Assembly (NCBI GenBank): GCA_030643545.1
Contig: DAOWLE010000032.1
Span: 1 to 40,006 of the forward strand
Direction of reading: 5' to 3'
Length of the DNA stretch: 40,006 nucleotides
DNA from: a bacterium
GTDB taxonomy: Bacteria; Patescibacteriota; Minisyncoccia; JAHIHE01; DAOWLE01
Below the pieces are notes generated by a model. That model was not told the DNA's origin. It did no database searches and saw only the letters and a program-made list of their open reading frames with translations. Of the stretch, positions 5,781 to 26,331 are shown piece after piece. The translations under genes were made by a program, and so were the position numbers. Each line of letters starts with the position of its first letter. Within the stretch, counting starts at the first letter, position 1.

Positions 5781-5816
5781 TTTTCCGCCTATGGCGGATC
5801 CGCCATAGGCGGAAAT
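5781..5816. repeat. Palindrome TCCGCC...GGCGGA in the HU leader
   Basis: TTCCGCCTATGGCGGATC is followed by its mirror, making a near-perfect long hairpin. Related TCCGCC/GGCGGA elements occur at 38927-38950 and 39415-39450, so it is a dispersed repeat in this genome. Confidence 0.7.
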
Positions 5817-8441: not shown

Positions 8442-9176
8442 ATGTCATCTTTGTCCCAACTCAAAAAAGAATTGAAGAAATTGTCTAATCCGAAGCAGGC
8501 GGAAATTTTGCAGAGATTTTTTAAAACTGGCAAAGGCGAATATGGAGAAGGAGATATTTTTCTGGGAATAAAAGTTCCAGTTCAAAGAAAAGTTGCGGCA
8601 AAATTTCAAAATCTTTCCTTAAAAGATATAGAAAAATTGCTTGAAAGTAAAATTCATGAGCATCGGATGATTGCTCTTTTTATTTTAATTAAAAAACATG
8701 AAAAAGCGGATGAGTGCGAAAAGAAAACGATTCTCAATTTTTATTTGAAAAATATAAAGAATATAAACAACTGGGATTTGGTTGATCTTTCCGCGCCGAA
8801 AATAGTCGGAGATTATTTAATGAAAAAATTAAAAGAAGGCGACCCAGCACATAATTATGTGCTGGGTCGCCTTCTCTGCAAACTTGCCAAGTCAAATAAT
8901 TTATGGAAAAAAAGAGTTGCGATTATTTCAACATGGACTTTTATAAAAAATAATGAATTCAGCGAAACATTAAAAATTTCAAAAATTCTTATCGCGGATA
9001 AACATGATTTAATCCATAAAGCTGTCGGCTGGATGTTAAGAGAAATCGGAAAAAGAGACCAAAAAACCGAAGAAAAGTTTTTAAAAAAATATTATCTGAA
9101 AATGCCAAGAACAATGCTTCGCTATGCCATTGAAAGATTTGATGAAAATAAAAGAAAATTTTATTTAAAAAAATAA
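8442..9176 (+). CDS. DNA alkylation repair protein, AlkD-like
   Basis: 244 residues of helical HEAT-like repeats. The N-terminal motif FFKTGKGEYGEGDIFLGIKVPVQRKVAAKF is typical of AlkD-family glycosylases, and NNWDLVDLSAPKIVGDYL and HKAVGWMLREIGKRD carry the conserved Trp/Asp surface. AlkD removes alkylated bases such as N7-alkylguanine without base flipping. A 42-bp perfect palindrome is embedded in frame at 8834-8875 and encodes the loop KEGDPAHNYVLGRLL; the reading frame continues normally. The gene ends 5 bp from the convergent PBP gene. Confidence 0.88.
   Translation: MSSLSQLKKELKKLSNPKQAEILQRFFKTGKGEYGEGDIFLGIKVPVQRKVAAKFQNLSLKDIEKLLESKIHEHRMIALFILIKKHEKADECEKKTILNFYLKNIKNINNWDLVDLSAPKIVGDYLMKKLKEGDPAHNYVLGRLLCKLAKSNNLWKKRVAIISTWTFIKNNEFSETLKISKILIADKHDLIHKAVGWMLREIGKRDQKTEEKFLKKYYLKMPRTMLRYAIERFDENKRKFYLKK
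8834..8875. repeat. 42-bp perfect palindrome inside the AlkD-like CDS
   Basis: AGAAGGCGACCCAGCACATA is followed by its exact mirror complement with no loop. The outer AGAAGGCGAC matches palindromes at 13223, 19909 and 26301, so it is a member of a dispersed family. Confidence 0.85.
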
Positions 9177-13222: not shown

Positions 13223-13252
13223 AGAAGGCGACATACGCGAATGTTGCCTTCA
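13223..13252. repeat. AGAAGGCGAC palindrome, copy 2
   Basis: GAAGGCGACAT pairs with ATGTTGCCTTC around ACGCGA (one mismatch/wobble). Same outer arms as the palindrome inside the AlkD-like gene. Confidence 0.75.
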
Positions 13253-13270: not shown

Positions 13271-13383
13271 GTTGACCCAGCTCTAGATTTTAAGTAAATA
13301 TAACGAAAAAGGAAAGCCAAAATTAAATTAGGATGATCAAACTATAAATAGATAATTTTTCTAAAATCTGGGGCTGGGTTGAC
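13271..13383 (+). mobile_element. MITE-like element, copy 1 (ends GTTGAC)
   Basis: 113 bp bounded by terminal inverted repeats of about 22 bp (GTTGACCCAGCTCTAGATTTTA and its near complement). A full-length relative in the same orientation lies at 32750-32861, with a shared interior (AAATATAAC, AAATTAAATTAGGA). It encodes nothing. Its right end supplies TTGACA for a promoter reading into secE. Confidence 0.75.
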
Positions 13384-17155: not shown

Positions 17156-17198
17156 TTTGAAAATGTGGTATAATTAAGATGATATTGGATATTTTCCT

Positions 17199-17226
17199 TG
17201 TTCGAAAAAACAATCTATTGTATAAT
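17199..17226 (+). promoter_or_regulatory. Promoter with almost leaderless start
   Basis: TTGTTC (17199-17204), 16-bp spacer, TATAAT (17221-17226). The predicted start is only about 4 nt before ATG 17237, so the mRNA should be nearly leaderless. A further TATAAT at 17170 lacks a good -35. Confidence 0.6.
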
Positions 17227-17236
17227 AAAAACGATT

Positions 17237-19705
17237 ATGGAAAAAAGAAACATAAAAATTCAAACAGAAAATTTACGGGTTGAAGCAAAAGAATTAGTTG
17301 CCGCGCCAAAAGAAACAAAAGGCGCTTTTTGTGATACTTTTGTTTACGAACCGGAAAATATACAGGAGCAGGCGCTGGGAAATCTTTATATCGTCGGCGG
17401 AATTTCAAATAAGCTCGCCAACAATTCTTCTTATTTAGTAAATCTTTTAGCTTCAATCGTTAAAAAGGATTATTACGCCAATCCAAAAAGAAATCCTTTT
17501 GAGGCCTTAGAATCCGCGCTTCATAAAGCCAATATGACTTTGGCTGATTTTACCGAGTCCGGAAATACATCATGGATCGGCAATCTTGATATGGTTGTCG
17601 CTGTCTGGCAGGATAAAATACTTCATTTTTCTTTGGCTGGAAAAATTAAAGTTTATCTTCTTCGCAATAATGAAATTACCGACATCGGACAAAATTTATT
17701 AAAAAGCGAAACAAAGCCGCATCCTTTTAAAACATTCGCCAATATTGCCAGCGGCTCTTTGGAAGAAGGAGACAAAATAATTTTTGCCACTCCGGCGATT
17801 GCCCATGAATTTTCATCCGGAACATTAAAAAATATTTTCTCTATTGAAACAAGCGAAGGCGCTCTGAAAAAAATTGAGGACTTTTTCCGAAAAGAAAAAA
17901 ACAAAGAAAATCTGGGAATGCTGACTTTAGAAATAAAAAAGGAAGTTTTGCCCAAAGAAGAAATTACTCTTCCTAAAATTAAGATTGAGCAGGAACAAGA
18001 GATTGAAAAATATAAAAAAGAAATTATTGAAAAACCAAAATCAGTTGGCGACCAAATTCAAGAAAACGGAAAAAAATTAACATTGGAAAATATTCTTGGC
18101 GAACGCTTTGAAGAAAAATCAGAAAAAGCTCCTGAAGAAGAAAATCCAGAAGAAGAAACTTTTGAAAAAGAATTTGATCAAGAAAATGAAGAACTTGAAA
18201 TTAAGCAAAGTAAGCCAACGGTTTTTGAAAAAGTAATAGACAAAAAAGAGATAGCTTCCGCTAAAATTTCTTCGCTTTCTTTATCTTTTAAAAATGTTTT
18301 GATAAAATTAAAAGAATTGATTTTAACTTTAGTAAAATCAATAAAAGCAAAATTAGTTCCGGCAATAAGTTCAATTTTTAAAAAAATTTCCTTTATATTG
18401 AAACCCGAAGGCGATATTCCGGAATATCGCCCGCGAGAAACCCACGACGAATCTATAGAAGAAAGCGACATTACGGAATATCGCCCGCAAAAATCAAGAT
18501 TGTTCGCAACAACGATAAAAAATAAAATTTTCAAATCGCGGTATCTCCAAAAAATAAAACAAAAATGGAATTCCTTTCCAGCTTCTAGCCGTCTCCTTTT
18601 AAGCACTTCACTTATTTTAATAATCCTTTTTGCCGGAAGTGTGATGCTTTTGTCTCAGAAAAAAACTCACGAAATAAATTTAAACCGCTATAGCGAAATC
18701 TTGTCTGAAGCAAATCAAAAAGAAGACCAAGCTGAAGCAGCTATGATTTATCAAGATGAAATAAAGGCGAGAAAAATACTGAAAGAATCGCAAGAACTGC
18801 TCGGACAAATTACCGGTTCGGATTATCTTCAGGAAGAAGTCAAAGAGTTAGAAGCGAAAATTCAAGAGCAATTGAAAAAATTAGATCATCTTGTTGAAAT
18901 TTCCGAACCGAAAATAGTTTATGATTTTAAAAAATTAAAACCTGAAATTGAAACCAAAGAGCTTCTTAATCTAAACAATATTTTATTTTCTTACAATCCT
19001 GCTAATAATAAAATTTACAAATACGATTTATCGGAAAATGTCGGTCTAACAGTTGAAGCGGATTCCAACGGCTTGGGACGATTGCAAAAAGGAACCGCCT
19101 TGACTGATAACCGCCTCGCCTTTTACACTGACGCGCCTGGCATAGCCGTGTTTAATTCAGATCGCGATGAATTGAAAAAAGTAGATACGGTTTTGGCTCA
19201 GGAAATTTCTTTGGAAAACCTTAAAGATATTTCAAGCTATGGAGCAAATATTTATTTTTTGGATGCCAGAAATAATCAAATTTGGAAACACTCGCCGATT
19301 CTAAGCGGATTTTCAAAAGCAAAACCTTGGATAAAGCCGAATGAAGAATCTGATTTCAGCAACGCGGTTTCTTTGGCAATTGACGGAGCGATTTACATTT
19401 TAAAACAAGACGGAACAGTTTTAAAATATTTGTCCGGATATAAAAAAGAAGGATTTATTTTAAGCGAGTTGACTCAGTCAATCAGCCAGCCGACAAAAAT
19501 TTACACTCTTCCCGGATACGCTAATCTTTACATCCTTGAACCGGAAAACAAAAGAGTTTTAATTTTTGACAAGCAAGGTAAAATCATTGCTCAATATTTC
19601 AGCGAAAAATTTAATGATCTGAAAGATTTGGTTGTTTTGGAAAAAGAAAAGAAAATTTATTTACTAAACGGAACAGAAATTGTTGAGATTGGAATAGAAA
19701 ATTAA
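17237..19705 (+). CDS. Membrane protein with PP2C-like N-domain and beta-propeller-like C-domain
   Basis: 822 residues from ATG 17237; the track's 13 extra N-terminal residues lie over the promoter. Residues about 20-250 resemble a PP2C/SpoIIE-type phosphatase fold (ALGNLYIVGGISN, WIGNLDMVVAVW, GDKIIFATPAIAHEF), but the metal-binding DG pairs are missing, so it is probably not an active phosphatase. A long acidic/lysine linker follows, then one TM helix (about 452-473) and a C-terminal region with repeated strands of the NHL/YWTD propeller kind (AIDGAIYILKQDGTVLKYL, NLYILEPENKRVLIFDKQGKI). A cytoplasmic sensor linked to an exterior propeller is a plausible layout; the function is unknown. Single-gene unit with terminator. 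Confidence 0.7.
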   Translation: MEKRNIKIQTENLRVEAKELVAAPKETKGAFCDTFVYEPENIQEQALGNLYIVGGISNKLANNSSYLVNLLASIVKKDYYANPKRNPFEALESALHKANMTLADFTESGNTSWIGNLDMVVAVWQDKILHFSLAGKIKVYLLRNNEITDIGQNLLKSETKPHPFKTFANIASGSLEEGDKIIFATPAIAHEFSSGTLKNIFSIETSEGALKKIEDFFRKEKNKENLGMLTLEIKKEVLPKEEITLPKIKIEQEQEIEKYKKEIIEKPKSVGDQIQENGKKLTLENILGERFEEKSEKAPEEENPEEETFEKEFDQENEELEIKQSKPTVFEKVIDKKEIASAKISSLSLSFKNVLIKLKELILTLVKSIKAKLVPAISSIFKKISFILKPEGDIPEYRPRETHDESIEESDITEYRPQKSRLFATTIKNKIFKSRYLQKIKQKWNSFPASSRLLLSTSLILIILFAGSVMLLSQKKTHEINLNRYSEILSEANQKEDQAEAAMIYQDEIKARKILKESQELLGQITGSDYLQEEVKELEAKIQEQLKKLDHLVEISEPKIVYDFKKLKPEIETKELLNLNNILFSYNPANNKIYKYDLSENVGLTVEADSNGLGRLQKGTALTDNRLAFYTDAPGIAVFNSDRDELKKVDTVLAQEISLENLKDISSYGANIYFLDARNNQIWKHSPILSGFSKAKPWIKPNEESDFSNAVSLAIDGAIYILKQDGTVLKYLSGYKKEGFILSELTQSISQPTKIYTLPGYANLYILEPENKRVLIFDKQGKIIAQYFSEKFNDLKDLVVLEKEKKIYLLNGTEIVEIGIEN
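18410..18489. repeat. Palindrome plus direct repeat in the linker
   Basis: GGCGATATTCC is followed by its exact mirror (18410-18431), and CGGAATATCGCCCGC recurs at 18474-18488. In protein this gives DIPEYRPRE and DITEYRPQK. A local duplication of a palindromic insert is likely. Confidence 0.6.
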
Positions 19706-19774: not shown

Positions 19775-19802
19775 AGTAGATTCCCGCCTACGCGGGAATG
19801 AC
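19775..19802. repeat. ATTCCCGC...GCGGGAATGAC repeat
   Basis: AGTAGATTCCCGCCTACGCGGGAATGACA, the half-element form of the family at 16718, 27359 and 35973. Confidence 0.8.
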
Positions 19803-19878
19803 AAAAAAGTGTATAAATTGTGGATTTGCTGTGAATTTCAAGAGGATAACAAGAGGATAAAAGAAATAATTATGGCGA

Positions 19879-19907
19879 TTGTTTAAAATTTTAATTTATA
19901 GTATAAT
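19879..19907 (+). promoter_or_regulatory. dnaB promoter
   Basis: TTGTTT (19879-19884), 17-bp spacer, TATAAT (19902-19907). The start near 19914 falls inside a 30-bp palindrome, so the dnaB mRNA begins with part of that palindrome. Confidence 0.65.
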
Positions 19908-19908
19908 A

Positions 19909-19938
19909 AGAAGGCAACAATATATATTGTTGCCTTCT
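19909..19938. repeat. 30-bp perfect palindrome between dnaB promoter and start
   Basis: AGAAGGCAACAATAT followed by its mirror. It is the same family as the palindromes at 8834, 13223 and 26301 and could act as operator or 5' hairpin. Confidence 0.8.
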
Positions 19939-19956
19939 GGACTGGACAAAAATACT

Positions 19957-21345
19957 ATGGCAGAAAATAAAAAAGAAAATTTTTCAAACAGCGGCATAAA
20001 AAACAGCGCCAATCGTTTGCCGCCGCAAAATATTGAAGCCGAACAATCAATTCTCGGCTCTTTAATGTTGTCCAAAGAAGCGATTATCAAAATTGCTGAT
20101 TTGATCAAGCCAAAAGATTTTTATCACCCGGCTCATGAAACTATTTATGAAACAATTATTGATCTTTACGAAAATCGCGAACCGATTGATCTTTTAAGTT
20201 TGTCCAACCGACTCAAAGAAAAAGGTAAACTTGAAGAAATCGGCGGACAAAGCTACCTAACCACTTTAGTAAATTCGGTTCCCACCGCCGCTCACATTGA
20301 TCATTATGGAAAAATCGTCCAAAAAAAATCCACCCTTCGGCGGCTGATTGACGCGGCTTCGCAAATTGTTAATCTTGGTTATGATGAAGAAAAAGAAGCT
20401 GATGTTTTGCTTGACCAAGCTGAACAAAAAATTTTTAATGTTTCCCAGAATTATCTTCATCAGGATTTTTCGCCGATCAAGCCGATTCTTGAAGAAGCGT
20501 TTGACCGTATTGATGAACTTCATAAAAATAAAGGAAAGCTGCGCGGACTGCCGACCGGCTTTTATGAATTAGATAATATTCTGGCTGGCCTGCAAAATTC
20601 AAATTTAATTATTCTGGCCGCCCGTCCGTCTTTGGGGAAAACATCTTTAGCAATGGACATTGCCCGGAATGTCGCCACCCGGGAAAAAATTCCGGTTGGA
20701 ATTTTTTCTTTGGAAATGTCCCAGGAAGAATTGATTGACCGTCTTCTCTGCTCACAGGCGAATATTGATCTTTGGAAATTACGAACCGGCCGCCTTTCAA
20801 GTGAAGGAGAAAATGACGATTTTTCCCGAATCGGACAGGCAATGGGCGTACTTTCCGAAGCGCCGATTTTTATTGACGACGCAGCTTCATCTTCAGTAAT
20901 GGAAATGAGAACAATGGCGCGGCGTTTGCAAGCCGAACACGGATTAGGATTAATTATTGTTGATTATATTCAAATGATGAAATCCCAGTCAAGTATTGAA
21001 AACCGCGTTCAGGAAATCAGCGAAATTTCCCGTTCTTTAAAATCTTTGGCGCGCGAATTAAAAATTCCGGTTCTGGCGCTTTCCCAGCTTTCAAGGGCAA
21101 TTGAATCGCGCGAAGGCCAGTTTCCCCGCCTTTCTGATTTAAGGGAAAGTGGATCTATTGAACAGGATGCCGATGTTGTTTTATTTATTTACCGCGAAGA
21201 CAAAGTTAAAAAAGATACAGAGCAAAAAAATGTCGCTGACATTGTTATCGCCAAGCATCGTAACGGACCAGTCGGCCAAGTCAAATTATATTTTAATGAA
21301 AACTACGCAAGTTTTAGAAATTTAGAGAAAAGAAGAACAGAGTAA
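19957..21345 (+). CDS. dnaB: Replicative DNA helicase DnaB
   Basis: 462 residues from ATG 19957; the 26 extra residues in the track overlap the promoter palindrome. N-terminal domain starts with the typical RLPPQNIEAEQSILGSLML. RecA-like domain: Walker A LAARPSLGKTSLAMDIARN, GIFSLEMSQEELIDRLL, Walker B LIIVDYIQMM, and the DnaB-type SRSLKSLARELKIPVLALSQLSR and RLSDLRESGSIEQDADVVLFIYR. Hexameric ring helicase that unwinds DNA at the fork. Followed by recR 6 nt downstream; the pair probably forms one operon. Confidence 0.96.
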   Translation: MAENKKENFSNSGIKNSANRLPPQNIEAEQSILGSLMLSKEAIIKIADLIKPKDFYHPAHETIYETIIDLYENREPIDLLSLSNRLKEKGKLEEIGGQSYLTTLVNSVPTAAHIDHYGKIVQKKSTLRRLIDAASQIVNLGYDEEKEADVLLDQAEQKIFNVSQNYLHQDFSPIKPILEEAFDRIDELHKNKGKLRGLPTGFYELDNILAGLQNSNLIILAARPSLGKTSLAMDIARNVATREKIPVGIFSLEMSQEELIDRLLCSQANIDLWKLRTGRLSSEGENDDFSRIGQAMGVLSEAPIFIDDAASSSVMEMRTMARRLQAEHGLGLIIVDYIQMMKSQSSIENRVQEISEISRSLKSLARELKIPVLALSQLSRAIESREGQFPRLSDLRESGSIEQDADVVLFIYREDKVKKDTEQKNVADIVIAKHRNGPVGQVKLYFNENYASFRNLEKRRTE

Positions 21346-26300: not shown

Positions 26301-26331
26301 AGAAGGCGACATTAGCCAATGTCGCCTTTCT
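26301..26331. repeat. AGAAGGCGAC palindrome, copy 4
   Basis: AGAAGGCGACATT pairs with AATGTCGCCTTTCT around AGCC (one bulge). An extra half-site, TATCGCCTTC, follows at 26341. Between the GT2 start and the end of rpsI. Confidence 0.75.

Follow-up and report, generated by a model that had tools for sequence, protein, structure and literature searches.

The literature describes REPs with a GTAG or CGTC tag, REPs inside genes, and REPtrons (PMC3733652), as well as the mechanics of REP/RAYT systems (PMC6006769). Two of the Rickettsia palindromic elements (RPE), RPE-4 and RPE-6, have been assigned to the CGTC REPs (PMC3733652). Our literature search found no description of such elements in Patescibacteria. 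The palindromes analysed here come from a 40,006-nucleotide stretch, hereafter the window, of a Patescibacteria genome that is probably Moranbacteria-like. They resemble REP/RAYT systems (REPtrons) in that short hairpin repeats are dispersed in one genome and related RAYT genes are flanked by matching palindromes; some copies are intragenic, as are some GTAG and CGTC REPs. Unlike REPs, the family is a perfect palindrome that starts with GAAG and has no unpaired GTAG or CGTC tag, the RAYT reading frame itself contains a palindrome, at least one third of the copies lie in open reading frames (ORFs), and copies have locus-specific inverted flanks. With RPE the family shares palindromic elements placed in frame in conserved protein genes, but judged by their description RPE differ in sequence, in the CGTC tag and in the core, which is far shorter here than in RPE-1, and for the present family a candidate transposase is found in relatives. 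Quasipalindrome mutations, which are made by fold-back template switching, duplicate flanking DNA in inverted orientation, with microhomology at the point of return. Inverted flank copies of this kind are also found here, but they come with the insertion of a core that is shared and dispersed.

A preliminary description of the window had noted four palindromes, at 8834, 13223, 19909 and 26301, with conserved arms and differing centres. All four were recovered, two perfect and two near-perfect, and two decayed copies absent from that list were found at about 18408 and 18460 within the ORF 17198-19705 (Table 1). The family unit has a fixed length of 28 bp, GAAGGCGAC-N10-GTCGCCTTC, and about 27 copies are dispersed in the genome that contains the window (G000; 845,155 bases in 45 contigs, about 95% complete), a small number beside REP-rich genomes. 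In the window, AGAAGGCRAC with at most one mismatch occurs 13 times against 3.2 expected, a count that no shuffle reached. Genome-wide, AAGGC-N16-GCCTT was found 22 times versus 3 for the reversed control, and AAGGCGAC-N10-GTCGCCTT with at most two mismatches 23 times versus once for the control; among the matches listed in a pattern scan of other contigs, most were chance or terminator-like. The catalogue used below was compiled with a looser cut-off in fetched stretches and holds 27 copies from this genome and 43 from six relatives. No conserved base or unpaired GTAG/CGTC tag was found outside the 28 bp, and the initial GAAG is itself paired. Rfam families matched only tRNAs and none at the palindrome sites, and no exact match to the palindrome was found in viral contigs. 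Direct repeats around the copies were inconsistent, so target-site duplication, as expected of MITEs, was rejected as a rule of the family.

Table 1. Palindrome copies and neighbouring features, with positions given in the window
Feature	Position	Strand	Remarks
dnaB-leader copy	19909..19938	.	perfect 30-bp palindrome; 28-bp core 19910-19937; centre AATATATATT
alkD copy	8834..8875	.	perfect 42-bp palindrome; family outer arms, longer and different centre
alkD host gene (DNA alkylation repair)	8442-9176	+	contains the 8834..8875 palindrome in frame
Intergenic copy	13223..13252	.	near-perfect; mraZ 265 bp away, next ORF 482 bp
Intergenic copy	26301..26330	.	near-perfect; rpsI on one side, glycosyltransferase gene on the other
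Decayed copy	18408..18433	.	in frame in ORF 17198-19705; peptide EGDIPEYRP
Second decayed copy	18460..18488	.	adjoins the 18408 copy; AGAAAGCGAC...; peptide ESDITEYRP; read from the sequence
TATAAT, possible -10 of dnaB	19902..19907	+	from the sequence; one base before the palindrome
Weak -35, TTGTTT	19879-19884	+	17-bp spacing to TATAAT
dnaB, replicative helicase	19957..21345	+	from probable ATG; named by reading the protein
Variant hairpin of the G013 RAYT			GTAAGCGAC

Other repeats were seen in the same DNA. The window holds an unrelated 34-bp perfect palindrome, TTTCCGCCTATGGCGGATCCGCCATAGGCGGAAA, at 5782-5815, and a second repeat, roughly 105 bp in length and bounded by long inverted ends (CCCAGC...GCTGGG), at about 13276-13378, copies of which, 77-82% alike, also lie at L190:2508-2608 and L196:509-614. 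Two family copies of the same genome (L187:2985-3053 and L194:2977-3045) have about 40 bp of left flank in common, including a TATAAT, so what moved to these two places may have been a longer unit.

The distribution of the family among genomes is patchy. Five genomes of the same order, G010, G014 and G015 (one genus, g11), G009 and G007, have 5-12 copies each, G003 has a single weak copy, and eleven other genomes that were searched have none. In a sample of 380 genomes of the phylum, palindromic copies outside the genome of the window were found only in G056, which belongs to another class, and three further matches had non-palindromic centres. In two of the relatives the palindrome is associated with a RAYT gene. 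A 201-aa ORF of G010 (L203:2351-2956) and a 189-aa ORF of G007 (L199:2775-3344) match Y1_Tnp above the Pfam cut-off, and both match the NCBIfam model for REP-associated tyrosine transposases (E about 1e-19 and 1e-20, respectively), slightly below its curated score. Both ORFs contain the palindrome in the same linker, and a second copy lies 90 bp upstream in G010. The RAYT of G013 is 61% identical, has an intact HuH motif (NHIH) and carries a variant palindrome, GTAAGCGACAATATATATTGTCGCTTAC, at the same two positions. In G010 and G007 the RAYT has H-L-N at the HuH position and is possibly inactive. Some RAYT-like gene was found in 7/7 carriers versus 5/11 other genomes, in small numbers, with weak matches counted and with G013 carrying a variant palindrome. 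In the genome of the window, a search with PF01797 (Y1_Tnp) found nothing and a protein query with the family-A RAYT found no close homologue, the best match being a distant RAYT of 25% identity. The RAYT of this genome at G000:C43:1066 (L325) has GTAGGGAACAAAAATTTTTGTTCCCTAC nearby, and further RAYT genes in the order have GTAG palindromes of their own around them, usually in two or three copies (L325, L338-L344). According to the preliminary description, random placement with no cognate transposase would speak against a REP-like family; within this genome half of that applies, in that no close RAYT homologue was found there.

Many of the copies in ORFs lie in frame within conserved genes. 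Gene names come from family scans where cited and otherwise from reading the sequences. In-frame insertions were found in alkD, prmC, tsaD, dusB, ksgA and xerC, as in the conserved genes colonised by RPE, and they are missing from relatives or solved homologues. XerC has a fixed length in 14 relatives and 14 extra residues in G010; the DusB, TsaD and KsgA sites are empty in several genera; solved homologues of AlkD from the window show an 8-residue gap at the palindrome, and a gap of about 12 residues marks the palindrome in PrmC of the same genome. Insertion into a pre-existing hairpin was rejected for XerC, where 14/14 aligned relatives have no insert, and is possible at DusB or KsgA. At TsaD, DusB, KsgA, TsaE and one intergenic site, unrelated palindromes occupy the same sites in sister species. 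These hot sites could be explained by the small number of tolerated sites in small genomes or by replacement of one hairpin by another; a similar case is recB of two Xanthomonas species (PMC3733652). A different palindrome family, GAAGCTNAGCTTCCTATAGGAAGCTNAGCTTC, lies in frame in DusB (L240) and KsgA (L292) of G010, at the sites that hold the AAGGC-type family in G014.

We consider it likely that the palindromes are a REP-like mobile family of 28-bp hairpins, putatively moved by a RAYT, that lands where it is tolerated, the dnaB copy being one such landing. The almost fully self-complementary unit would fold as a hairpin when single-stranded, and a RAYT, a HuH/tyrosine single-strand transposase, would most likely copy or move such hairpins, which could land between genes, in 5' leaders as at dnaB, at gene ends, or in frame in essential proteins. 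Against the REP-like reading we count that no close family-A RAYT was found in the genome of the window, even with about 95% of it assembled, that the G010 and G007 proteins have H-L-N and that the tag is missing; the movement itself is one that we infer from comparing sequences.

The flanks of the copies bear on how the hairpins might be inserted. In genus g11, 19/31 copies have a perfect, locus-specific inverted repeat of at least 8 bp outside the core, ranging from 8 to 24 bp among those 19. The mean arm length over all 31 copies is 9.8 bp versus 1.6 bp when the flanks were re-dealt among copies (self-pairings included). Nearly all genomes studied are metagenome-assembled and in many contigs, and an assembly artefact is conceivable for inverted arms, but orthologous arms recur across assemblies and reading frames are kept. 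The 42-bp insertion in G010 xerC consists of the 28-bp core plus 14 bp that repeat the native left flank in inverted orientation; by direct reading, the inverted copy and the native sequence both have CTG at the return point. Because the inverted flank ends at this 3-bp microhomology, fold-back synthesis during insertion is suggested. In TsaD of the same genome the native flank is on the opposite side. At an orthologous site (L206/L233) the arms are kept with a two-sided change and the centres differ (CCGG and AGCT). A misfit is the G014 copy L225, whose arms are not native and whose hairpin is flanked by a 6-bp direct repeat, TGAATA.

Replication template switching with no dedicated enzyme, in which fold-back copying makes or extends palindromes and cores spread by switching between copies, would account for the long arms of genus g11, for the core-plus-flank structure of the XerC insertion with its CTG end, and for the finding that sister species carry unrelated hairpins at identical sites. 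Template switching alone, however, does not readily explain how one 28-bp core comes to lie at many unrelated loci, the exact core also occurs within and next to RAYT genes, and the long arms are missing from the copies in the genome of the window (mean 1.7 bp). We regard it as an unlikely explanation of the family. For the RAYT-moved hairpins that we favor, the inverted flanks led us to hypothesize that a hairpin attached by one of its ends undergoes snap-back synthesis. A single-stranded hairpin would be joined one-ended to a 3' end, its own 3' end would prime snap-back copying of the flank to give X-core-rc(X), and the product would rejoin the chromosome where it finds a microhomology. By such one-ended joining and self-primed flank copying, each insertion would build its own long inverted repeat and add in-frame protein sequence to essential genes; we propose this pathway tentatively, and it is rather more apt to prove wrong than right. 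We found no description of a one-ended hairpin-primed transposition pathway for REP elements in the papers accessible to us.

The preliminary description had offered protein-binding sites as the other reading and had pointed to two copies at control regions, mraZ/secE and dnaB. Of the 27 copies of this genome, ORFs hold 10; tandem genes flank another 10, convergent genes 4 and divergent genes 3. ORFs were called with a simple rule that takes the longest one, and the dnaB copy, though read as a leader, is counted as in an ORF. REPs are mostly extragenic; here 17/27 copies are intergenic. No enrichment at promoters was seen across the 27 copies, and the family is not promoter-linked, given that 10 copies lie within ORFs and 4 are flanked by convergent genes, so that the two control-region copies do not reflect a general rule. 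The differing centres, moreover, covary. In 49 distinct cores the outer pairs are nearly invariant, and the central pairs 8-13 are highly variable yet complementary; pair 10 is complementary in 47/49 cores (A-T, T-A and C-G types) versus 20 in shuffles, and for pairs 8-13 over the full set the observed complementarity was reached by 0/5000 shuffles. The innermost four bases are mostly self-complementary (CGCG, CCGG, ATAT, GGCC, AGCT, TCGA). Since these four are unable to pair within one hairpin, selection for a hairpin alone does not explain them, and a palindrome-making process might. If the palindromes were operators for a DNA-binding regulator acting as a dimer or tetramer, and the dnaB and mraZ copies worked as control sites, this would fit the dyad symmetry, the conserved arms and the TATAAT adjoining the dnaB copy. 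Independent operator contacts, however, do not predict that variable central bases change in pairs, and the copies in ORFs and between convergent genes, as well as the insertions in coding genes that are missing from orthologues, make operators very improbable. The REP-like half of the earlier alternative is supported by the dispersed family and the palindrome-bearing RAYT genes of G010 and G007, whereas placement and paired centre changes speak against the binding half.

The dnaB copy had been proposed to begin at the transcript start. The palindrome indeed lies between a perfect TATAAT and the probable ATG of dnaB, one base behind the former, but the -35 is weak, the promoter scan did not call this promoter, and a canonical +1 would be placed some 5 bases into the palindrome. 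If the TATAAT promoter is used, the dnaB mRNA would start only a few bases into the hairpin. A longer dnaB ORF from TTG at 19879 runs through the palindrome; because this start overlaps the -35-like hexamer, the palindrome at 19909-19938 was taken as leader. A repeat of the type ATTCCCGCCTACGCGGGAATGAC, a different palindrome, lies further upstream at about 19785-19804. Selected RNA hairpins, either intrinsic terminators or mRNA-stabilising leaders such as a 5' hairpin on dnaB mRNA, would suit a copy at the very start of the message and some copies between convergent genes with A/T tracts, but the dnaB copy has no terminator-like site, the T-run that follows an intrinsic terminator is missing there and at most copies of this genome, many copies lie within conserved genes, and the self-complementary innermost bases cannot pair in a hairpin loop, which leaves this explanation hardly credible. 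On the favored REP-like reading, the dnaB copy is most likely a landed hairpin in a 5' leader and not a dedicated control switch; an effect of the leader hairpin on dnaB expression is possible, though speculative.

The family is REP-like in its working but has no unpaired tag, and many copies lie in frame as in RPE; we do not class it with the GTAG or CGTC REPs. With it, REP/RAYT biology reaches into the streamlined Patescibacteria, together with in-frame colonising of essential genes as in Rickettsia, and here a candidate transposase can be connected with the palindromes in essential genes. Through the footprint of inverted flanks, the way in which REP-like hairpins insert becomes directly testable, and such insertions would allow selfish DNA to make proteins longer in very small genomes.
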